From positions 1 through 36,852 of the forward strand of contig JAKABN010000005.1 of the NCBI GenBank assembly GCA_021796895.1: 36,852 nucleotides of DNA. The letters are read 5' to 3'. Below, in pieces: positions 5,569 through 28,212 of the stretch. Every line of letters starts with the position of its first letter. The first letter of the stretch is position 1. The position numbers and the translations under genes are program-made. The notes under the pieces were generated by a model that saw nothing but the letters and a program-made list of their open reading frames with translations, did not search any database and was not told where the DNA came from. The stretch comes from Thermoplasmata archaeon. GTDB taxonomy: Archaea; Thermoplasmatota; Thermoplasmata; Sysuiplasmatales; Sysuiplasmataceae.

Positions 5569-7869
5569 TCAAGCGCCTCCGATGCCGAAGTTCCAGAATG
5601 TCGCGGACATCTGATATCCAACCGTGAGGCTACCTGCCAAATACATAAAGGTTGTCCCGCTGACCGACCAGTTGTTAGCGAGTGCTAGACTATGCACGGC
5701 GGTGAAATTTATCACAGTCATGTTTGTCAGTATGACAATTGTGTTTGCATCCGGATGAAAAGTCATTGAGGAAACGGTCGAGTTGTACCCAATCCATATG
5801 CTCTTCAGACCGCTCTCGAACTGAAACTCCGCACCGAAGAAGATCAAAGGCTGGCCTGCGGCATTTACCGAACTGCCCTCGGAAGCCGCCGGTCCGGTTA
5901 TGCTCAGGCGGTAGCCAAGAAATGCCCCGGCTCCTGCCAGAGCACTCAGGTTAATATTGTCATTTATCATCTGCGCTGATACCCATCCCGGCCGCGCCGA
6001 ACTCCTTCCCACTATTATACTTATCTGCCCTGGCGCGTAACTGTATTTTCCGGCTCCGTTTCCGCTCAGAGAGAAATGCCAGCCCACTGGTGAACTGGTG
6101 TTATAGAAGCCGGCATTCAGCATCAGCGGATTGTCTATCTGCAGCGCTGGTTTGGCATATCCGCCCGCTGATATGTACACCGACTGGAAGTTGTCATAAT
6201 ATGCTATGAGCCTGAATGAAACGTTGCTCTGTACGTAGTCGATGGGCGTGTTCGGTATTATGCGCATGGTGCTCGTGCCGGGCGCGATGACAGGATTCTG
6301 TGCACTCCAGAGCATCCCGTTCGCACTGACCACCGGGCCGTTTACGAGTATTCTGAAGAAGACAGGAATGCTGGCCGGCTGCCCGTTTGCAGGAATGTAG
6401 CTCACAGAAACGTTCATCGCCGTTATCATTCCGGGCACGGAATAAGGGTTGCTGAACGAGTCTATTTTCACAATCTTCAACGGTTCGTTGCTGGCCGCAG
6501 CATATCCGAATGCCGTGACGACCCCTCCCCCGACCACAATGATAGCGACCATCGATGCGGATACTCTGTTGTTCCTCACGGCCGCAATAGCGGACCTGAT
6601 GGCCTGCCTGAGATGTATTTGTGGTGCGGGCTGAAGAAGACCGCCGCTTTTCATCTGCTCGACGAGGTCAGGCAGCAGGAGCAGAATGAGGAAGGGCCAG
6701 TATATCAGGTAGTTGAGCAGAACGCGGTAGTAAAAAACGAATGAAAGAACGGGGAATGCGAAGAATGCAAATTTGAATCGTTCGTAACCGGTGACATACA
6801 GAACAAAGAATGTTGCGAGTATAAGCACGGGCAGAATCAGGAAGACGTATCTTGCAAGAGGAATGAATCCAGCGAATGCAAGTATTGACGGCCCCAATCC
6901 TATTCCTACGATCGGCTGACTTGCAACGCCGGCCACGCTTGCGAACCAGGCGTAGGGGTTCATCGCTATGAATGGTGCGTTGGTTACGAGGAAAGATGCT
7001 GCCATGTATGCCGAGAAGGTCGCCGCAGCCTTCCAGTCCTTTCCTCTTTCCATGTAGATGAAGTAGAGGAAAAAAGGAAAGATCGCGGCTGGAGTCTGTT
7101 TGAATGATATGCTGAGCCCGAACAGCAGGCCGGAAACAGCCGGTCTGTCCCTGAATGCATAGGAGAGCGCGAGGAAAAAGAGCCATACTATGTCTGTGAC
7201 CCCTCCGACGGTGTAAAACACCCAGTTGAAATTGACGAGCAGTATGAAGGTGGCATACGGAAACAGATCCGTGAAACGCCGTTTTCTGTAGTAATAGAAG
7301 AGCAGTGGATAACATGCAAGACTGAATGCAATGAGTATGTAATTGCTGTGCACCCCCCCTATCAGGGCGGGCATCATCATGAGCACCGACAGACCGGGGT
7401 AAGTCATGTAGTGCACGTATCCTCCGGTCAGCACGGGTGTTATGAAGTAGAACGGCACGTGATAGAACGAAAAAGCGCGGATCATGTTTGCGCTCACGTA
7501 AGGGTCTACACCGTGCAGTGTCAGATATGCCGCATAGGTGTCAAGAGCCAGCTCATCCGTTCCGAATGTCGGGAATATTCCGACCAGCGCGGCAAAGTAG
7601 GCAGTCATACCCGTGAGCAGCAATGTCAGAAAGGCATAGTCGATGCCTTTGTGATTTACTCTGACTATTGCCGAATAAACAAGGGAGATGCCGGCGAGTA
7701 TGAGCAGAAGCCAGACGGCAATCAGCATTTCAAGATCGAGGTATCCTGTTCTTGACCACAGCGATGTTGCGTAAGTGATGAAAAAGATCGCCATGCCTAT
7801 GTAGGCCACCCTGTTTATCAGTGTCCGCAGAACCCTCTCCTCCAATGGAAGGGGCACATCTCCTTTCAT
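5569..7869 (-). CDS. Polytopic membrane protein, GT-C/mannosyltransferase-like N-terminal half with large C-terminal extracytoplasmic domain
   Basis: About 10 or more TM segments in the first ~450 aa, then a soluble Ser/Asn/Gly-rich ~300 aa domain; adjacent to the GT2 gene. Confidence 0.6.
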   Translation of the reverse strand: MKGDVPLPLEERVLRTLINRVAYIGMAIFFITYATSLWSRTGYLDLEMLIAVWLLLILAGISLVYSAIVRVNHKGIDYAFLTLLLTGMTAYFAALVGIFPTFGTDELALDTYAAYLTLHGVDPYVSANMIRAFSFYHVPFYFITPVLTGGYVHYMTYPGLSVLMMMPALIGGVHSNYILIAFSLACYPLLFYYYRKRRFTDLFPYATFILLVNFNWVFYTVGGVTDIVWLFFLALSYAFRDRPAVSGLLFGLSISFKQTPAAIFPFFLYFIYMERGKDWKAAATFSAYMAASFLVTNAPFIAMNPYAWFASVAGVASQPIVGIGLGPSILAFAGFIPLARYVFLILPVLILATFFVLYVTGYERFKFAFFAFPVLSFVFYYRVLLNYLIYWPFLILLLLPDLVEQMKSGGLLQPAPQIHLRQAIRSAIAAVRNNRVSASMVAIIVVGGGVVTAFGYAAASNEPLKIVKIDSFSNPYSVPGMITAMNVSVSYIPANGQPASIPVFFRILVNGPVVSANGMLWSAQNPVIAPGTSTMRIIPNTPIDYVQSNVSFRLIAYYDNFQSVYISAGGYAKPALQIDNPLMLNAGFYNTSSPVGWHFSLSGNGAGKYSYAPGQISIIVGRSSARPGWVSAQMINDNINLSALAGAGAFLGYRLSITGPAASEGSSVNAAGQPLIFFGAEFQFESGLKSIWIGYNSTVSSMTFHPDANTIVILTNMTVINFTAVHSLALANNWSVSGTTFMYLAGSLTVGYQMSATFWNFGIGGA

Positions 7870-8296
7870 CGCTGCAAGAAGTCAGCGTGCACTATAAAAA
7901 ATACTCTCGTACTGGTTAAGCCAAATGGTTGAAAATGCGGGATGCGCTCACCGCTCTGACTCTCCCCTTCGACCCAATCCCGGAGTCTCTACTCCCCGAG
8001 TATATGAAACCAATCCGGCTCAGCTCATCCCCTTCCATTCAGATTCACCGGTAGATTTGAGAACAAAAACAGCCATAAGCTGAATAGATTACGTAAATCG
8101 GCGGGAGTTAGAGATTAATCCGGGCAGGCCTGTATTATTTATTTTATCAGGCAAAAATTTGTGATCACTCGGTGTTTTTCTACCTGCGGTATTGATGTCA
8201 ATGTGAAGGCATTTGGAGTTCCAGCTGATTGCCGAATCAAAAAAGACTGAATCAAGAGTCTTTATATCTGCATAATACCGTGGTAATACGATTGCC

Positions 8297-13870: not shown

Positions 13871-16800
13871 TTAATCGTTTGCATCGGCTCGTGTCGAATC
13901 CGGTTTATCGCTGTCGAATTTCTCCAGTTCGGTACTCAGGTAACCCCTTTTCAGATCTCCGATGTCTATTTCCTCGAAAAGTTTCTCGAGTATCGCAAGC
14001 TCCCTCTGCTCGAAGGTCATCTTGTCTATTGCAACGAGCAGCACCGATGATGTGTCGACCGTCTTCTGCATCACGCTTTCCAGCATTCCCATTACCTTCA
14101 TCATGCTGTTGTTGGAAAGCAGATATTCCAGCCCGTCCAGAAACACTACGGCGTTCTTGTGCCTCTCTATAAACGAGAGAATCGCGCTGCCGATGACTGA
14201 AATCTTCGACGGATCGAGGTTGCTGTTGCCCACAACCTGCGTCAGCCACCTGATTTCTGTGTTTCCCAGATCATATTTTTCCCTGAGCTTGGAAGGATGC
14301 TGTCTGGTAATCACAAGCGGGTTGAATCCCGCCTTCTTGAAATCGACCAGTGCAAGATATGCAAGCAGCGGCTTCTGCTCAGGTATCATGTAGCTGAAGC
14401 CCCGCTTCATGGAATACCTCACTCCCTCCACCGGCGAGTGGACAGTCCCGGAAGCTTCCATTTCCTTCCCTACCCCCTGCAGTGCCTTGGTCTCGTCCGT
14501 CCCGTTTCCCGCCTCCTCCCTCAGTCTCAATATGAATCCTCTCCTGTCCCTCCCGGACAGCGGAGAAGCGGAAACAATAATCTTCCTCGGGCCTTCGGAC
14601 GACGCGAAGAGATAGGAGGACTCAAATCTTTCTCCCCTCCTGATGTTTTCCGAGAGATCTGCGACCTGATATGCATCGCCGTCGTCCAGCAGCGAAACAA
14701 TTTTGTCCCCGCCGGTTCCGGGCTGCATGGCCAGCAGTTGCCTGGCGGCTCTGTTGGCGAACTCTATGTTTCCATGTATGCTCAGCCTCATAATAGGTTC
14801 ATCCATATCGTCCAGTATTTCCGAGAGTTCGATCTGCCTGACTTCCGCCACCCTTTTCAGCTGCTTTTCCTGTTTCAGTGTTTCCGTAGCGGAAAACGAA
14901 TTTATCACGTTTGATGTCAGCCTGTCCAGTATGGTGACATCGCTTTCGCTAAAACCGCCCTGTCCGAATCTGTTTATGAGCAGTAGCACTGCCCTGATTT
15001 CAGTTCCGCTGCCCTTGTAGAGGGGGTAAATGAGCAGCTCTCTGACGTAGCCGTCCGATTCAGTCTCACCTTCAATCCTGACGTTCTCAAAACTGTTTAT
15101 CACCATGGCCTCCCCCTTTTCCGCTGCTTTCAGCGCCAGTCTCTCAATGGAATCGGGTATCTTCGTCTCAAAGTATCCGCTCCATTCTATATAGGAGGAG
15201 GACAGCGTGCCGGCGAGTGCGTATTCCGCCCCGATTATGTGGCCTGCCGCAGACGCGAATGCATCCATCATACCGCCGAAATCCCTGTGGGACGCAACTT
15301 TCTTCCCAATCTCGTCCACGGTGCTGAAGAGTCCGTGCCTGTGTCTCTCTTCCGACAGTGCCGACAGCTGCCTCACTCTTCTGGATATGAAGGGCGCCAT
15401 CTCGTTGTAGATGTGTATGTGTTCCGACATATGGCAGTCGGGCGGGTAACCTGCCATGAACAGAAAATCGGTGCCGTCTATCGTGCTCATCCTCCACGCC
15501 ACAAGCCTGTTCCCGAAAAGCGCCGGCACATTTTCGTCAACCGAGGGCGGAAACTCGCTCACCTGCGGGTGCATTCCGTGCGTGCCTGTCAGATGAGTCG
15601 CATATTTCATCATTATTTCTGCCTGCACGACTCCTTCGCCTCCTGAGGACGCTGCCAGTCTGAGCACTGCCTGCATGTAATCGATCGAGTATATGGCAGC
15701 GAAGGCAGCGCCGAGGCGCTCGGTTGCATAACCGCACACCTTCCTGTAGACAGACTGGACTTCAATCTCGTCCCCGACAGCATCTTTGAACGCCGCAATT
15801 TTGCTCAGGCGCTGAAGATCGGCATGATCGGACATGCTTGTCTTTATGCCGATGTGCCGTGAATTGTAGAAATCGAGGAGCTTCTGAGTCACAGTGTTCC
15901 TGTAGACGTCCTTCCTGAGATTTGACTGGAAACCGAAACCTATGAGCAGGACCGACTGTCCGTTCTTCTCCGATGATTCGTGTATGAGCATATTCCTGAA
16001 TACAGGCCGCTCAACTCCCGCCGGAGCGGCTCCGAACGCATCTATTGCCGCCGATGTTTCGGTCTCCCCTTCCTGTGTGTATGTTCTTGTCGCGAGTTTC
16101 ACCATGTCGTGCATCATGCCGTTCAGTGAAGCTGCGCTGATTGAACACCCTCCGCCGCCGAAATACTTCAGGTCGGTGCATAAGCACTGCAGTTGACTCT
16201 CACCGTCCTTTTTCAGAAGCAGCATTCCGGTCTCACAGGTTGAAAACCGGAGCGCGCTGCTGAGAACCTTTGATGCAAATGAATCGCTGTCAGGACTGTC
16301 AAGGCTTTCGATCAACTGTTCGGCAAGCACAGAATGCATTGAGTTTTCCTTCTCCTTTTCGGCATATGACTTGCGTATCTCCAGTGCCGCGTTCGCTCTT
16401 TCCATCACAGTGGAAAATTGCCTGCCGGTTATTTCCGCCATCTCGATCTCTTCGGCAGAGAAGGTCTTCTTTCCGATTCTGTGAAGTGCGATGACGCCGA
16501 TGTCTTCTCTCACGCTCTTCATGGGTATGGCAAGAATGGCCTCCGGCTCATTGGGCGTTCCGGGTATGTTGATAGAGGCCGCGTCCGCGTTTGCTTCCTG
16601 AATGAGCACCGGCTTGTCATTCGATATCGTTCTACCGACGATGCCTTCTCCAAGCTTGACCGAGAAGGACAGCATTTCGTCGGCAAACACACCGCGCGAT
16701 GTGACCGGAATCAGGAGCGATCTGCCCTCGTTGAGGACGTAGAACACCGAAATGCTCGATGGTATGACTGAATTGATGAACGAAAGTGCTTCCTCGGCAA

Positions 16801-17926
16801 TGCGAACAGGATCGTTTTCCCTGTGCAGCAGAAGGATCTCCTCCAGCAGCATGTTCCTGAACAGTATTTTTCTGTCCTTCTCGGAAATGAGCAGGCTCGA
16901 GGACATTCTTGCACCAAGAATCTGGGACAGAAATTCGACGTCCCGGAACTCGACATCGTCCAGAGGGACGGGCGACCTGCTCTCCATTATCAGAATCGCA
17001 CTGCCTTTCGAGTTTGTCTTCACCGGTATGAGTGCAGCCCACCTGGTGCCTGTCCCGAGCGGTTTATAACCCAGAGATTCGACATCCTTGATCACGAGAG
17101 GTTCATTCTGGCCCGCAACTCCTATGATCATGCTGCTGAGCTTCATGCTCTGCGGGCTGTCGTATAATGGTGTCAGGGACTCGCTCATTCCCGCAAACTC
17201 CAGAGAGTGCCCGGTTTCATCCGTTACCATCAGGGCGACATAGTCTATGCCCATTCTCTTCTGTATTATGTCAGCAATCTTGTTGAGCACATTGTTTGCA
17301 ATCGCACCTTCGTGCAGCTGGTTTCCAAGCTCGATCGCGGCTGCAAGCCTGGATGAGTGCGACAGCTGCTCCCCTACCGCAAACTCTCTTCTGATGACTG
17401 AATCGAATATCCTGTTGACAAGTGACAGCGCAAGCTCTTCGTCTAAACTCAACTGCGTGCGCACTCCCACGTAAGTGTAGAGAGTTGGAACTCCGCTCTC
17501 CGTTCCCCGGAAGAGGATAAAGTCCGTGACGCCCGTAGCCAGAGAGATTTCGTCAATCAGCCTGATGCCCGAGCCGGGTGCCTTAATCGCCTTCTTGCTA
17601 TCCCCGAAATCGGCGTTAAGCGGCAGAAGATCCTCATATTTTGTCTCATCCAGTTCGCCAATCAGCTCCTGATGACTCGTCCATCTGAAGCGAAGATCCC
17701 TGCTGATCACAACAAAAATGACAAACATATCCTTTCTGAGTCTCGCAATATGCCTGCCAAAGGAGAAGAGAAGGGATTTCCAGTCCCCGGCGTCCGTCAG
17801 GACATCGACTCCGGCTGTTATGAACCGCTCGAAGGAGTCGACCGCTTCCGGAGGAGAGCGGATACTGGCTCCTTTGAGTTCCGCACTCGCCACGAATTCA
17901 TTTATGCTGCTCTCATTCTCTGACAT
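13871..17926 (-). CDS. Giant multi-GAF, PAS and C-terminal DUF835 signalling protein without kinase domain
   Basis: Several GAF-like segments (e.g. LGEGIVGRTISNDKPVLIQEANAD...AIPMKSVREDIGVIALHR), PAS ILDDMDEPIMRLSIHGNIEFANRAARQLL, C-terminal DUF835-like KPLLAYLALVDFKKAGFNPLVITRQHPSKLREKYDLGNTEIRWLTQV...VVFLDGLEYLLSNN. Confidence 0.85.
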   Translation of the reverse strand: MSENESSINEFVASAELKGASIRSPPEAVDSFERFITAGVDVLTDAGDWKSLLFSFGRHIARLRKDMFVIFVVISRDLRFRWTSHQELIGELDETKYEDLLPLNADFGDSKKAIKAPGSGIRLIDEISLATGVTDFILFRGTESGVPTLYTYVGVRTQLSLDEELALSLVNRIFDSVIRREFAVGEQLSHSSRLAAAIELGNQLHEGAIANNVLNKIADIIQKRMGIDYVALMVTDETGHSLEFAGMSESLTPLYDSPQSMKLSSMIIGVAGQNEPLVIKDVESLGYKPLGTGTRWAALIPVKTNSKGSAILIMESRSPVPLDDVEFRDVEFLSQILGARMSSSLLISEKDRKILFRNMLLEEILLLHRENDPVRIAEEALSFINSVIPSSISVFYVLNEGRSLLIPVTSRGVFADEMLSFSVKLGEGIVGRTISNDKPVLIQEANADAASINIPGTPNEPEAILAIPMKSVREDIGVIALHRIGKKTFSAEEIEMAEITGRQFSTVMERANAALEIRKSYAEKEKENSMHSVLAEQLIESLDSPDSDSFASKVLSSALRFSTCETGMLLLKKDGESQLQCLCTDLKYFGGGGCSISAASLNGMMHDMVKLATRTYTQEGETETSAAIDAFGAAPAGVERPVFRNMLIHESSEKNGQSVLLIGFGFQSNLRKDVYRNTVTQKLLDFYNSRHIGIKTSMSDHADLQRLSKIAAFKDAVGDEIEVQSVYRKVCGYATERLGAAFAAIYSIDYMQAVLRLAASSGGEGVVQAEIMMKYATHLTGTHGMHPQVSEFPPSVDENVPALFGNRLVAWRMSTIDGTDFLFMAGYPPDCHMSEHIHIYNEMAPFISRRVRQLSALSEERHRHGLFSTVDEIGKKVASHRDFGGMMDAFASAAGHIIGAEYALAGTLSSSYIEWSGYFETKIPDSIERLALKAAEKGEAMVINSFENVRIEGETESDGYVRELLIYPLYKGSGTEIRAVLLLINRFGQGGFSESDVTILDRLTSNVINSFSATETLKQEKQLKRVAEVRQIELSEILDDMDEPIMRLSIHGNIEFANRAARQLLAMQPGTGGDKIVSLLDDGDAYQVADLSENIRRGERFESSYLFASSEGPRKIIVSASPLSGRDRRGFILRLREEAGNGTDETKALQGVGKEMEASGTVHSPVEGVRYSMKRGFSYMIPEQKPLLAYLALVDFKKAGFNPLVITRQHPSKLREKYDLGNTEIRWLTQVVGNSNLDPSKISVIGSAILSFIERHKNAVVFLDGLEYLLSNNSMMKVMGMLESVMQKTVDTSSVLLVAIDKMTFEQRELAILEKLFEEIDIGDLKRGYLSTELEKFDSDKPDSTRADAND

Positions 17927-18197: not shown

Positions 18198-18815
18198 ATG
18201 TCTGACGATATGCTCATCGGTGACGCGCACCATGGTTACGGAGGACGGGACGGTCTCCCGTTTGCTTCCGGAGATGCGACTGAGGAGAACACCGGTACAA
18301 TCGCTGCAGGGGATGGCACAGAAGCTCTCGCTGAGCCTGTCTTCCCGGAGTTACGGGAGGCTGCCATCGGCATTTTGCTCACTGCCGGCTCCATGAACGG
18401 CCTGGAAGCTGACAGGATTGTGGCGTACTCGAAGACACTGAACAGCCTGTGCAGATCTGTGCTCGAAAATGCAGAGGAACGCATCCGCTGCGTCGAAGAG
18501 ATTCACACGGTTGAGCCGGAAATATCCGTTAAGAACCGCGGTTCAGGGCGTTCCGTGTCTGAAATGGCGTTTCCCTCCGGGTCCGTCCTGAGCCGGGACG
18601 ACTGGTCGAAGCTCTGCTCGCTCCTGGCAGACAGACTCGACAGATACGGCTGCATAATAACACAGCGGGACAGGAAATTCCTTTCCAGCAAATCAGGCAT
18701 CGAAATTTCATCCTATATGTGGTCGACCCTGGTAAAGAAGCTGGATCTGAGAAGGGTGAAGAATCCATACTCTGCTTCTTCACTCGTCATATACGTTCCA
18801 CGTGCCGGCAAATGA
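18198..18815 (+). CDS. Hypothetical protein
   Basis: 205-aa ORF with promoter at leaderless spacing; no family recognised. Confidence 0.5.
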   Translation: MSDDMLIGDAHHGYGGRDGLPFASGDATEENTGTIAAGDGTEALAEPVFPELREAAIGILLTAGSMNGLEADRIVAYSKTLNSLCRSVLENAEERIRCVEEIHTVEPEISVKNRGSGRSVSEMAFPSGSVLSRDDWSKLCSLLADRLDRYGCIITQRDRKFLSSKSGIEISSYMWSTLVKKLDLRRVKNPYSASSLVIYVPRAGK

Positions 18816-20070: not shown

Positions 20071-20340
20071 ATGCGGATGCGAGGAAGAGACGGATCGGAT
20101 AAACGGATAACATCTTCGCAGATTGCCACTTTTGTTTACTGTGCAAGAAAGCACAGTATTGCCTCTTCCCTGCCTCCGGATTACATCGAACCTGCCTCAG
20201 TCCGTGACAGAAGGGAAGAAGGCGTCTCGTATCACAGGTCGAAAGGAAGAACCGTTGTTGTGCGATCCCTGATGAGAGTTTTGCTGTTTGCGGCAGGCAT
20301 TCTGGCACTAGCGGGGGCGCTGATAATATGGCTCAGATGA
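20071..20340 (+). CDS. N-terminal part of a Cas4-like (RecB-type) protein with C-terminal TM helix
   Basis: ITSSQIATFVYCARKHSIA (Cas4 first-Cys motif), GVSYHRSKG (His motif), then TM SLMRVLLFAAGILALAGALIIWL. Confidence 0.6.
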   Translation: MRMRGRDGSDKRITSSQIATFVYCARKHSIASSLPPDYIEPASVRDRREEGVSYHRSKGRTVVVRSLMRVLLFAAGILALAGALIIWLR

Positions 20341-20792
20341 CCATGTTCGCATTGTTTCTCTTCGCTGTGGGCATTCTGATACTCATATACTGGTTTGCGG
20401 CTGCAGACCATATGCAGTCCAGCGACATGTTCGGGTCCGGGATGCTTTTCAGATCCGCACGCTATCCTCTCAGCGGCAAACCTGATGTTGTGCTGAAAAG
20501 GAGGCGCACGTTCATGCCTGTTGAATACAAAAGCTGCAATTCAGGCGGCATCGCAAGGGACTGGGATGTGGCACAACTGCTCTCATACTGCCTTCTGATT
20601 GAAGAGTGCGCAGGAAGAACAAAAGGCGGAAAACTGGTGTACAGGGACATGGAATTTTTTATTCCATGGAACGGCCGTTCCAGGCGGTATATTGAAAACA
20701 CAATCATGGAGATGCTCAACGGCTATGACCGTATGACCGACGACACATGGAAATGCGGAACGTGCGAGTTCAGGCAGTTCTGCGGAAGATGA
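20337..20792 (+). CDS. C-terminal part of a Cas4-like nuclease with N-terminal TM helix
   Basis: TM MTMFALFLFAVGILILIYWFAAA; GKPDVVL...FMPVEYKS...QLLSYCLLIEE (PD-(D/E)xK and Q motif); C-terminal CGTCEFRQFC. ATGA overlap with the upstream ORF (track ORF begins 20328). Confidence 0.72.
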   Translation: MTMFALFLFAVGILILIYWFAAADHMQSSDMFGSGMLFRSARYPLSGKPDVVLKRRRTFMPVEYKSCNSGGIARDWDVAQLLSYCLLIEECAGRTKGGKLVYRDMEFFIPWNGRSRRYIENTIMEMLNGYDRMTDDTWKCGTCEFRQFCGR

Positions 20793-23722: not shown

Positions 23723-25852
23723 TCAGTCATTGCACGGTGTGACCACGGTGTAATCCGAATCCAGTATTCCTCTCACCGTATCTTCAGTGAATCCAAACGA
23801 GCTGAAGAATTCTGCCAGAGCGCTTCCCACGTATTCAAAATCTTCCTTCCCCAGTTTCCTCGTATCGACCAGCAATTGTCTTGAATGCCTGCTCGTGTAG
23901 AAGAGTTCGTCGACTCTAGAAAAGATATCTGCCTTGAGCATGCTCCTGAGTGAACTGCGGGTTAATGTTTCTCTTTTTTCAATTTCCCCCAGCATCGTGC
24001 TGTCAATGAGTCCCTCTTCCGACGCCGTTCTAAGATAATTGACCACGTCCTCCTTCAGCGGGTTGAGCCCGAAATGTTCCTCTCCCACGCTTCCCCTTAC
24101 ATAGAGCCTTCCTCCCACCATTCCGGAAGCCGCAAACATGCCTATCGGCTCAGGGGCATCGAGAAGATTGAGGACAACTGCGGCGCCTCCCGCCATGTAT
24201 TCACACAGATAGTCGTCGCACGTCTCTCCAATTATCAGCGAGGGCCTTCCGCTTTCCGTGCTGTATTCTCTCATCTGTATGCCTGCCCTGTTTCCGGCGG
24301 AGCCCCGGATGAATATGAATCCGCCCTGGAGTGCCTGCCCCAGCACATCCCCCGCATCGCCGTGAACAGTGACGCCGCCTCTGTGCATCGTGTCGCATGC
24401 ATCGTCTGCTATGTTTCCGTGTACCCGGTAGAACAGACCATCGTTGAGGTTTGCCAGGCAGTTGCCCGGATTCCCGTGCAGTTCCACTGTCAGTTTACTC
24501 TCACTCGAGAGCGCCATTCCGATGTACCTGTGCCCTGCCACATTCCGAAGCGCTACCTCTTTGGCATCGCGTGCCGCAGCTTCCCTCAGGAATCTGTTGA
24601 TATCATCATATGACATCGCAGAAGCATCCCTGGATGCCGGCCAGTCCTGATCATCTGATGAATCATGCAGCTGGGCATCATATCGCGGCAGCATGCTCGT
24701 CCCGCCGGCTACCGCCATGCGTCTCGAACTCCCGCCGGCGATGATACCCATGGAAAGGGATGCTATGAAGAAAGCTCCCGGCTCCGGCCTCCACGTCCTG
24801 GCCTCCGGCGATATGCACCGAATCTGTGTCTCCTCACTCGCAACGTAAAAATGACCATCATCCTCGCCGAGCACCATCGGTCTGAGTTTCGATCTGTCCA
24901 CCATGGCTATGAGATACAGATCGTCCCCGTCGCAGAAACCGGCGGCGACAGAGAACGGTCCGTCGAGTCTGGCCCTGCGATATCTGTTCATGAGTGAAAG
25001 CATTTCGCCGTCGACACCTCCCTCCATCGGCCCGGTGAGCACTGTGCATGCCTGCTGCACTGTCAGTCCTTCAACCCTGACCAGCCTGTCCATCAGCCTG
25101 GCTATGACCTCACTGTCCGTTCCCGCATGACTCCTGAATCCCCAGGATCTCAGCATGTTGACATTCGAACCGAACGAGCTTATGTCTCCGTTATGCACGA
25201 TGGCGCATTCCATCGATGCGAAAGGATGAGACCAGAACGGATATGTGCCGGGAGAATTCGTCGGCTGCCTCGTGTGTGCAATCCACATGTCCGCGGAGAC
25301 CCTGTCTCCGTCGAGAGCATAGGCCCGGGCAACCTCGGCCGGATGTCCAACGCCCTTGTACACCTCCACGAATCTGCCGAACGAAACAATTCTTCCGTCC
25401 GGACTTCTTCCGGAGAAGAGCCTGGTGTTTATGCCGTCGACTATGGCATCCAGATCGTCTGTTCCCGATACACTGTACGGTGATACTGCCGCCGTCATCA
25501 GTTTCATCTCACCGCCGCCTCTGCTTATCGCTGCTCTGTCCAGCCTGAAGTGAAGAATTCTGCCGAACTTTCTCTCCACATCCCTCCTGATGTATGTCGC
25601 TGCTGCATCGTCTCTCACAAATGCCGTGAGCCTGAAGGGTTCCCATTCCGGTGCCGTTCCTGTCAGTGTGAATGAGGCAAAACCGGCTCCCAGTCCGCCG
25701 CCCCTGTAACTTGCTGCCGATATTCCCTTAACCGGCACGCGGCCCGCAATCCTCATGGCGTCCTTCTTCCTGATCATGCCGAATATGCCGCATCCGTCCT
25801 TGACAACGGGAACGCGAAGGTCCGCCGGTTTTCCGTTTTTCACGTCACTCAC
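23723..25852 (-). CDS. Glutamate synthase class-II glutamine amidotransferase domain fused to GXGXG domain
   Basis: VVKDGCGIFGMI (catalytic Cys), WIAHTRQPTNSPGTYPFWSHPF, HNGDISSFGSNVNML; C-terminal GXGXG-type repeats GGVTVHGDAGDVLGQALQGGFIFIRGSAGNRAGIQM. GTG at 25852 overlaps the upstream stop (GTGA); track ORF begins 25894. Confidence 0.85.
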   Translation of the reverse strand: MSDVKNGKPADLRVPVVKDGCGIFGMIRKKDAMRIAGRVPVKGISAASYRGGGLGAGFASFTLTGTAPEWEPFRLTAFVRDDAAATYIRRDVERKFGRILHFRLDRAAISRGGGEMKLMTAAVSPYSVSGTDDLDAIVDGINTRLFSGRSPDGRIVSFGRFVEVYKGVGHPAEVARAYALDGDRVSADMWIAHTRQPTNSPGTYPFWSHPFASMECAIVHNGDISSFGSNVNMLRSWGFRSHAGTDSEVIARLMDRLVRVEGLTVQQACTVLTGPMEGGVDGEMLSLMNRYRRARLDGPFSVAAGFCDGDDLYLIAMVDRSKLRPMVLGEDDGHFYVASEETQIRCISPEARTWRPEPGAFFIASLSMGIIAGGSSRRMAVAGGTSMLPRYDAQLHDSSDDQDWPASRDASAMSYDDINRFLREAAARDAKEVALRNVAGHRYIGMALSSESKLTVELHGNPGNCLANLNDGLFYRVHGNIADDACDTMHRGGVTVHGDAGDVLGQALQGGFIFIRGSAGNRAGIQMREYSTESGRPSLIIGETCDDYLCEYMAGGAAVVLNLLDAPEPIGMFAASGMVGGRLYVRGSVGEEHFGLNPLKEDVVNYLRTASEEGLIDSTMLGEIEKRETLTRSSLRSMLKADIFSRVDELFYTSRHSRQLLVDTRKLGKEDFEYVGSALAEFFSSFGFTEDTVRGILDSDYTVVTPCND

Positions 25853-28212
25853 TCCGGTCCGGCAGGCTTCAGGCTCAGTTCGTTTCTCCACCATGTGTCC
25901 ATGTCTACAGCTCTGAGCAGCTCCCTGTTGCCAGTGAGCGAAGAGCCGACGGAACTTATTCCTGCCGCCCCTGCCAGCAGCTTGATTTCCTTCTGCAGTC
26001 CCGCGACAAGATTCTGCAGCAGCTTACGGTCAACAGTCGCCACTAAGCCGTGTCCGCCGGATGCGCCCGCAGTTCCGGTCCCGCATGCCATCGAGGCGGC
26101 AGTGCGGAAACCCGCAGCATCCGCTCCGAGAGCGACCAGCTTGAATATGTCCTCCGCTCCGCAGATTGTGTCGTCCTCGGCCAGAATTGTAATGCTTTCT
26201 CTCAGACCCGCATCCAGAAACAGGGCATCTACCGCCGAAACGGTCAGTTCCACGGGGGCATGCGAACGCCGATCGTCCATGTCAATAACCACGCCTGCGA
26301 ACACACTGCAGTTCCAGTTTACGGCGGCGAGTTTTTCCGCCGTTTCCGGCGTTGAGGGGCACCTTATCAGGAGCGGTCCTTTCCCGCCGCCTGTGTTTCC
26401 GATCCGCGCGAGGTCGTCGACCGTGTCTATGTCTATCGTCCTTATGCGCGCGCTGGATGCCGTGTTGTCCAGTGCGGACATGAGGCGGGCGCCCGTGCCC
26501 TGCATTCCGCACCTGCCGCTGTCCAGAATGAGCCCCATCTCGGAGGCAACCCTTTCGAACACGGCGTCGTCTGTGTTGTCGCTCCCTGCAGGTGCATGGG
26601 TGAAGAAGAAAGGAGAGGAGAGTCTGATAGTTCCCCCGCATATCCGCACACCAGTGTCTATCCGCTCCCTGTAGGGGTCTATGCTCGGTCTCGTGACCTG
26701 GGCACCGTCGCAGACTATGCTGTCCATCGGTCTCACGGACTCTCCGGAGCGTCTCACAGCTCCGGTGCCCATGCTGGACATGACCGCTTCCCTGGGCGAT
26801 TTCCCGGAGGCGCCGGAAAGTTCCCTGAGCGCCCTGACAGTCTCCTCGTCCCAGACACTCTCCTGAACATCCTGTGCGATGTCATTGATGGAAGCTCCAG
26901 GTTCAATGCCATATGCATTCCCTGCATCCGCTCCGCTGATACCCAGAATGGACGTGAGTTCGTCCCGCTCATTCCCCGAAAGGCGCAGCAGCGACCTGTT
27001 GCCTATGAGTTCCGAAAGTCTGCCCACACCGGCCGCGGACATGATCTCGCTCATCTCACCGGTCCATCCGTTTACGAGATTTGATATCCATAATATGGCG
27101 CATTCCTGCGAAATTGTCCTCTCCGGCGTATCGTCAGCTCTGTTTGTAATCAGCGCCGGGCAGAAACCCGTATGGCACTTGTGAACCATGAGACAGCCCA
27201 GCGCCAGCAGTGTTGCGGTGCCCAGGCTGGTCATGTCCGCTCCCAGTGCCATCAGCTTCACCGAGTCTTCCGGCGTGCTCACACGCCCACCAGCTATTAT
27301 CGTGAAGTTTTCTCTCAGCCCCTCCTTTCTGAGAACGGCATCCACCGCAGGCACTGCGAGCTCTATCGGCATGCCGGTATTGTCGCGTATGACTCTGGGT
27401 GCGGCCCCTGTTCCTGCGCCCGCACCGTCTATTATGATGCCCGCTGCGCCCATCCTGGCGACGCCCGCTGCAATGTATGTAATGTAGTTTGTCGCCGCCA
27501 CCTTCACCATCACTGGTCTGCCGGTTGCATGTTTGAGGGCGGTTATGCGCTGGCCAAGATCCTCTATGGAGTATATGTCGTGATGAGGTGCCGGAGAAAT
27601 CGCATCACGTCCGGGCGGTATACGTCTGGCCGCGGAGATCGGGCCCGTCACTTTCGCGCCAGGCAGATGGCCGCCGATGCCAGGCTTGGCCCCCTGTCCG
27701 ATTTTTATCACAACGGCCTGTCCTTTCGACAGCGACGAGGCGTCTACTCCGAACCTTGCCGAGGCCCACTGGACCGTTATCCTGCCGCAACCGGTTATTT
27801 CGGGCATCAGCCCTCCCTCGCCTGTTCCGGCAATCACTCCGGTCCTTTCGGCCGCCATTGCTATGGCAATGTTGGGAATACCGGAAAGTGCTCCGTACGA
27901 CATATCCCCGAGATAGAGTGGAGAGGAGAGTGTCAGGTCAGAGCCGTTGCAGAACCGTGAACTCATATCTGCAGTCCGCGTCATTCCCGTATGCATCTTT
28001 TTATCACTGACAATGAAAATGCGGTCCAGTATCCTGCCCGTCCTGTTGTTGGCAGGAATGTACGGCTGACGTGTGGAGCGCCCTGAAAGTGACATTGTCC
28101 GTATGTGTTCTATTCTCCAGTCATCCCAGAATTCCGCCGTTCTCTTTTTCGGGAGAGGCCTGTATTTATTGATTACCACGCTATTTTTTGCCAAGACTGT
28201 AGATGGCAGCAT
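25849..28212 (-). CDS. Glutamate synthase FMN/[3Fe-4S] catalytic domain, followed by a second degenerate copy
   Basis: LSSPLYLGDMSYGALSG, GTGEGGLMPEI, KIGQGAKPGIGGHLPG, CLMVHKCHTGFCPALITN; second copy in the C-terminal ~300 aa. Confidence 0.88.
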   Translation of the reverse strand: MLPSTVLAKNSVVINKYRPLPKKRTAEFWDDWRIEHIRTMSLSGRSTRQPYIPANNRTGRILDRIFIVSDKKMHTGMTRTADMSSRFCNGSDLTLSSPLYLGDMSYGALSGIPNIAIAMAAERTGVIAGTGEGGLMPEITGCGRITVQWASARFGVDASSLSKGQAVVIKIGQGAKPGIGGHLPGAKVTGPISAARRIPPGRDAISPAPHHDIYSIEDLGQRITALKHATGRPVMVKVAATNYITYIAAGVARMGAAGIIIDGAGAGTGAAPRVIRDNTGMPIELAVPAVDAVLRKEGLRENFTIIAGGRVSTPEDSVKLMALGADMTSLGTATLLALGCLMVHKCHTGFCPALITNRADDTPERTISQECAILWISNLVNGWTGEMSEIMSAAGVGRLSELIGNRSLLRLSGNERDELTSILGISGADAGNAYGIEPGASINDIAQDVQESVWDEETVRALRELSGASGKSPREAVMSSMGTGAVRRSGESVRPMDSIVCDGAQVTRPSIDPYRERIDTGVRICGGTIRLSSPFFFTHAPAGSDNTDDAVFERVASEMGLILDSGRCGMQGTGARLMSALDNTASSARIRTIDIDTVDDLARIGNTGGGKGPLLIRCPSTPETAEKLAAVNWNCSVFAGVVIDMDDRRSHAPVELTVSAVDALFLDAGLRESITILAEDDTICGAEDIFKLVALGADAAGFRTAASMACGTGTAGASGGHGLVATVDRKLLQNLVAGLQKEIKLLAGAAGISSVGSSLTGNRELLRAVDMDTWWRNELSLKPAGPE

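Follow-up and report, generated by a model that had tools for sequence, protein, structure and literature searches.

Cas4-type nucleases have been studied as soluble single-chain enzymes that take part in CRISPR adaptation and DNA repair. The histidine of their GxxxH motif is an active-site residue. Cas4 proteins (PF01930, TIGR00372; structures 8d3l, 4ic1 and 4r5q) have D, ExK and Q motifs of the RecB type, the histidine of the N-terminal lobe and four cysteines in common with the gene pair described here. By Foldseek the predicted fold is also the same, both for a joined model of a relative of the pair and for the second half taken from the DNA under study. Solo-Cas4 genes are a further point of reference (Hudaiberdiev et al. 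2017, PMC5704561), since the pair, like them, is Cas4-like and lies outside a CRISPR locus.

In this work a stretch of 36,852 nucleotides from a Thermoplasmata archaeon (the window) was analyzed, which stems from a fragmented MAG of 241 contigs that is 79% complete. Two overlapping open reading frames of the window, ORF1 and ORF2, are very probably two genes for one obligate two-subunit, membrane-anchored Cas4-type nuclease with a [4Fe-4S] cluster bridging the chains. The two-gene architecture is well supported, and the two products would assemble into a heterodimer that carries the cluster and has nuclease activity. The enzyme would belong to the RecB-like PD-(D/E)XK, [4Fe-4S] class, and its role would lie in the processing of ssDNA or DNA ends at the membrane, independently of CRISPR.

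The gene pair in the window

The features of the pair are collected in Table 1. ORF1 contains the motif SSQIATFVYCARK with Cys24 and GVSYH with His55, and ORF2 contains GKPDVVL, PVEYKS, QLLSYCLLIEE and CGTCEFRQFC. The initial annotation had described ORF1 as the Cas4 N-terminal segment with the first cluster cysteine, the histidine region and a terminal transmembrane helix, and ORF2 as a leading transmembrane helix followed by D, ExK, Q and the last three cysteines. These motifs were found as described, the helix of ORF1 is predicted by hydropathy, and ORF2 scored above the Pfam cut-offs of both PF01930 (Cas_Cas4; 27.0 bits, gathering cut-off 22.7) and PF12705 (PDDEXK_1; 27.9 bits, cut-off 22). 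The score of ORF2 against the CRISPR-associated Cas4 equivalog TIGR00372 was 51.1 bits, which is below the curated cut-off of 65, and a Pfam search with ORF1 of the window alone gave no match. In a profile search, ORF1 corresponded to the N-terminal Cys/GxxxH segment of Cas4 and ORF2 to the core with the last three cysteines. The strong matches obtained with PADLOC were Cas4 profiles, weaker ones included DruK and Cas4-Cas1 fusions, and the program assigned the pair to no defence system. An ATGA overlap between the two frames had also been noted before; it is present if ORF2 begins at ATG 20337, and with the alternative start ATG 20328 the overlap amounts to 13 nt.

Table 1. Features of the ORF1/ORF2 gene pair in the window
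Feature	Position	Strand	Remarks
ORF1, N-terminal half of Cas4-like nuclease	20071..20340	+	89 aa; Cys24, Gly51, His55; predicted C-terminal membrane helix
ORF2, catalytic half	20328..20792	+	start codon ATG 20328 or ATG 20337
Cys24 codon, ORF1	20140..20142	+	first of four predicted cluster Cys; invariant among homologues
His55 codon, ORF1	20233..20235	+	GxxxH motif; invariant; aligns with GxxxH of Cas4 8d3l
Predicted C-terminal membrane helix, ORF1 (approximate)	20274..20337	+	hydropathy; helix 31-75 in joined L052 model
ATGA stop-start overlap, ORF1/ORF2	20337..20340	+	same position in L004
Predicted N-terminal membrane helix, ORF2 (approximate)	20337..20402	+	hydropathy; helix 2-22 in model of window ORF2
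Putative catalytic Asp of GKPD, ORF2	20484..20486	+	invariant among homologues
Putative catalytic ExK (E-Y-K), ORF2	20523..20531	+	E and K invariant
QLLSY motif, ORF2	20574..20588	+	Q and Y invariant
C-x2-C-x5-C, ORF2	20754..20783	+	last three predicted cluster Cys; invariant

Occurrence of the pair

A scan of genome contigs with ORF2 alone as the query gave 0 matches; a scan of named genomes with an alignment as the query gave 52 loci, which belong to Thermoplasmata, Chloroflexota, Desulfobacca and Paracraurococcus. The ORF2 profile was found in 31 of the 101 Chloroflexota genomes sampled (E < 1e-20), the weakest of these matches being a Cas4-Cas1 fusion (L125). The initial annotation had allowed for the case that all relatives encode one continuous frame; instead, after removal of duplicates, ORF1 and ORF2 occupy separate open frames at 82 loci in Thermoplasmatota, Chloroflexota, Desulfobacterota and Pseudomonadota. 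The split pair is additionally present on Bacillus subtilis and Paludisphaera plasmids, which are complete plasmids of isolates and in whose records ORF1 is annotated as 'hypothetical protein'. Its occurrence can be sporadic (1 of 96 genomes in the class of Paracraurococcus, 2 of 79 in the phylum of Desulfobacca), and no relatives of the pair were found in viral and phage collections.

Conserved residues, membrane topology and structure models

Across six phyla, the only invariant positions of ORF1 are Cys24, Gly51 and His55, as judged from two sets of homologues (n=20 and n=16). Among ORF2 homologues the D, E, K, Q and Y residues and three cysteines are invariant, the tyrosine in two of the homologue sets aligned, as is an Asp close to where the soluble part begins. 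With one N-terminal and three C-terminal residues, the predicted set of four cluster cysteines is complete and invariant, and together with the predicted Cas4 active-site residues it is divided between the two chains. Similarly, PF12705 aligned to ORF1 of B. subtilis and Paludisphaera over positions 1-43, with weak matches below the cut-off (E 0.0015-0.008), and to ORF2 of the same organisms over positions 101/122-246.

Hydropathy analysis predicts one membrane helix for each half. A net positive charge is found on the soluble-domain side of these helices, in keeping with the positive-inside rule, and outside the membrane there is a median of only 2 aa, both behind the helix of ORF1 and ahead of that of ORF2. 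Thus, the soluble parts of both proteins are expected on the cytosolic side, with the break between the chains at the outer face of the membrane.

As a proxy for the pair of the window, a joined chain of the Chloroflexota relative L052 was modelled, in which the single in-frame stop was read as a residue. This chain was predicted with a pLDDT of 94.7 and a pTM of 0.89 from an alignment in which the ORF1 rows ended ahead of the helix. Its best Foldseek match was the Cas4 chain 8d3l_J, with a TM-score of 0.65 by target over 270 alignment columns, and the matches comprised type I-C Cas4 (8d3l), Dna2, an Argonaute-associated Cas4 and AdnA. ORF2 of the window on its own was modelled by AlphaFold with a pLDDT of 88.8 and likewise matched Cas4. 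A Cas4 fold is thus confidently predicted across both halves in the joined L052 model, and for ORF2 of the window alone as well.

On this basis the following assembly can be proposed. The N-terminal helical lobe of ORF1, with the first cluster cysteine and the GxxxH histidine, would reside in the cytosol, and the chain would then cross the membrane outward. ORF2 would begin outside, cross back and bear the catalytic core (D, ExK, Q) with cluster cysteines 2-4. The helices of ORF1 and ORF2 would pair at the place of a hairpin, and docking of the N-terminal lobe on the core would complete the active site and link the two chains via the cluster. The nuclease would then become active only where the membrane holds both halves next to each other.

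Genomic context and possible role

The neighbourhood of the pair differs between phyla. In a group of Chloroflexota loci (L044, L052, L060, L067, L068, L073, L077 and L080) the gene order is SSB, DUF3467 (missing at some of them), a translin-like gene (PF01997, E 1.9e-5, narrowly short of the cut-off), ORF1 and ORF2, with genes resembling NAD kinase and RecN behind ORF2 at several loci. One group of Thermoplasmata has L7Ae, S28e-like and L24e ribosomal genes as neighbours; the NAD kinase and S28e identities were read from the sequences. A saccharopine dehydrogenase-like gene lies upstream of the pair at Sysuiplasma loci, and an ammonium transporter lies downstream of it on the opposite strand in the window. 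Three B. subtilis plasmids have the order helicase (Helicase_C_2), hypothetical gene, ORF1, ORF2 and Hfq. Since these contexts vary between phyla, no single pathway is indicated.

Some further genes around the pair may be recorded here. At 13871-17926 (minus strand) the window encodes a 1351-aa GAF and DUF835 protein, and L033 and L035 of the Sysuiplasma family have a long opposite-strand ORF of one protein family at the same place. The same two loci encode a protein similar in size, sequence and place to that at 18198-18815 of the window, which has no Pfam match at a meaningful E-value. Glutamate synthase is encoded at 23723-28212 (minus strand) in two overlapping genes, one with the amidotransferase and GXGXG domains (723 aa) and one with the Glu_synthase/central domain (787 aa). 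On the B. subtilis plasmid NRS6116_2 (L130), CpaB and an A24 family peptidase are encoded besides the split pair, which suggests a pilus-type system.

The chromosomal contexts suggest a housekeeping function in the processing of DNA ends or ssDNA at the membrane, and the plasmid contexts would also fit a function in defence or in the transfer of DNA. Tentatively, the pair can be pictured as a widespread membrane nuclease whose redox-sensitive cluster and active site would form only when the separately encoded halves meet, whose activity would be gated by co-insertion and whose substrate at the membrane would be DNA of the chromosome or DNA entering the cell. With the same architecture, the enzyme could instead serve in defence or in the control of incoming DNA and not in repair. 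The presence of the pair on B. subtilis and Paludisphaera plasmids, the pilus-type proteins on NRS6116_2 and the fact that Cas4 itself acts in CRISPR adaptation speak for such a role; the ribosomal protein, SSB, NAD kinase-like and RecN-like genes next to the chromosomal pairs of Thermoplasmatota and Chloroflexota speak against it, as does the lack of matches on phage or viral contigs, and we consider it rather unlikely.

Two genes, probably for one enzyme

The model of ORF2 on its own shows a Cas4 core, and in a few genomes the two genes are not adjacent; this could also mean that ORF1 acts separately as an adaptor in the membrane and that ORF2 is a nuclease that does not need it. However, the few invariant positions of ORF1 include exactly the Cas4 residues that ORF2 is missing (the first cysteine and GxxxH), and the joined L052 model unites both halves in one confident fold. 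Furthermore, a Thermoflexus MAG has ORF1 and ORF2 on different contigs and has kept both, so that ORF1 is retained there even where adjacency is lost. An independent ORF2 nuclease is therefore improbable, and we keep to two subunits of one enzyme.

A different question is whether the two frames are translated as one gene, with a ribosomal frameshift or stop codon readthrough yielding a fused hairpin protein. The stop is located at the hairpin turn, and in 61 pairs, a count that includes a few loci fetched twice, ORF2 is in the -1 frame relative to ORF1 in 52, which would suit recoding, as would a few loci with a single in-frame stop between the halves (L052, L055, L060, L080 and L059). However, the frame relation is 0 in 5 and +1 in 4 of these pairs, and no one recoding event fits all three relations. 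Inspection of the window junction by eye revealed no slippery heptamer, and some bacterial ORF2 genes are preceded by a Shine-Dalgarno-like sequence of their own (GGGAGG in L073, GGTGATACTATG on the B. subtilis plasmids). In several genomes the halves are even set apart: besides the Thermoflexus contigs, L098 and L071/L115 have an L,D-transpeptidase-like gene (identity read from the translation) between them, L090 has another gene there and L089 a 200-nt gap. As halves separated by genes or contigs occur in some genomes, frameshifting or readthrough is not the general rule, and the mixed frame relations together with these separated genes rule out a programmed event as the general mechanism. 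Expression of the pair as one recoded gene is thus very improbable, and two separately translated subunits are the preferred reading.

Probable independence from CRISPR

Neither Cas1 in the genome of the window, within its 79% completeness, nor cas1 or cas2 genes next to the pair were found. Cas1 is present somewhere in 16 of the 29 pair-carrying genomes and absent from the other 13, several of which are 95-100% complete. Furthermore, pair-carrying Chloroflexota genomes possess separate soluble Cas4s that adjoin Cas1. The pair is thus a Cas4-like system outside a CRISPR-cas locus, as the initial annotation had proposed in view of the window alone. Membership in the Cas4 family and the 16 genomes with a Cas1 would be compatible with a nuclease of CRISPR adaptation; given the genomes that lack Cas1 and the separate soluble Cas4s next to Cas1 in Chloroflexota, this function has hardly any probability.

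Conservation and origin of the split

The nearest sequenced relative (G003/L004) has both ORFs, with 64% identity in ORF1 and 75% in ORF2. Comparison of the window with this relative gave dN/dS values of 0.20-0.26 for ORF1 and 0.16-0.17 for ORF2; the two frames thus evolve under purifying selection. The split is common to 6 of 6 genomes of the same family with a close ORF2 match; in all of them ORF1 is in another frame and its TGA stop overlaps or lies near the ORF2 start. The division into two genes is genuine and conserved, and a sequencing error does not account for it. The main alternative of the initial annotation, a single-base frameshift in the gene of a fused hairpin protein, is ruled out by the split genes of the same family, of other phyla and of complete isolate plasmids. 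Although the fragmented assembly of the window could have suggested a sequencing frameshift or a decaying pseudogene, this explanation is practically eliminated by the conservation of the split across independent assemblies and complete plasmids and by the selection on both frames.

Both profiles were found in one frame at 18 loci, of which 17 encode Thermoplasmata proteins predicted to have 3-8 helices and one encodes a soluble protein. In the only fused two-helix homologue found, which comes in addition to these 18 (L111, in the Chloroflexota genome G129), the catalytic Asp is gone (ARPA instead of GKPD) and ExK has become DIK, with the four cysteines kept; no active fused two-helix form was found alongside the 82 split loci. 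The genome of the window itself encodes a single-chain Cas4-like protein of 344 aa (L001, G000:C223:5543-5872) with about 4 predicted membrane helices inserted between the N-terminal cysteine and the core. Such polytopic single-chain proteins occur in many of the sampled Thermoplasmata genomes (L001 relatives L014-L032), and L031 has about 8 predicted helices resembling repeated hairpins. This single-chain subfamily shows that not every member of the membrane clade has to be split. A separate observation concerns L062, where the ORF1 frame at about 7500-7900 reads LGQFVYATEG and is without the first cluster cysteine (LGQFVYCSDG in the close relative L075); this is possibly a degenerate or misassembled copy.

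In a core-domain tree the membrane forms are set apart from soluble Cas4 (SH-aLRT 85-88). The polytopic single-chain forms are nested among the split ones in this quick tree, yet the AU test (p about 0.5) does not reject monophyly of the split forms, so that the split may have been either gained or lost.

Comparison with known systems

Overall, if cluster ligands and active site are divided as proposed across archaea and bacteria, this would be an unusual assembly route for an Fe-S nuclease, and the pair points to an unnamed DNA-processing activity at the membrane. As it is present on B. subtilis plasmids and in cultured Paludisphaera borealis, the pair is testable now. In the literature searched on split, membrane or solo Cas4 we did not find a published description of this arrangement, nor was a description of the polytopic Thermoplasmata proteins found; in the main text of the solo-Cas4 survey (PMC5704561), a word search returned neither 'transmembrane' nor 'split'.

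The nuclease domains of Dna2, AdnAB and AddB and the protein ACE1 (9iab) have the RecB-family fold in common with the pair and appear as Foldseek matches. Unlike the pair, however, Dna2, AdnAB and AddB are helicase-fused, ACE1 is associated with Argonaute, and none of them is split at a membrane. The polytopic Thermoplasmata proteins (e.g. L001) belong to the same membrane clade as the pair in the core-domain tree and have their predicted helices between the N-terminal Cys/His segment and the core; they are one polypeptide each, in contrast to the two genes of the pair. The same difference separates the pair from the PF01930 family with its one polypeptide chain: known Cas4 is a single soluble chain, whereas the pair consists of two genes, each with a predicted membrane helix, away from cas1 and cas2.
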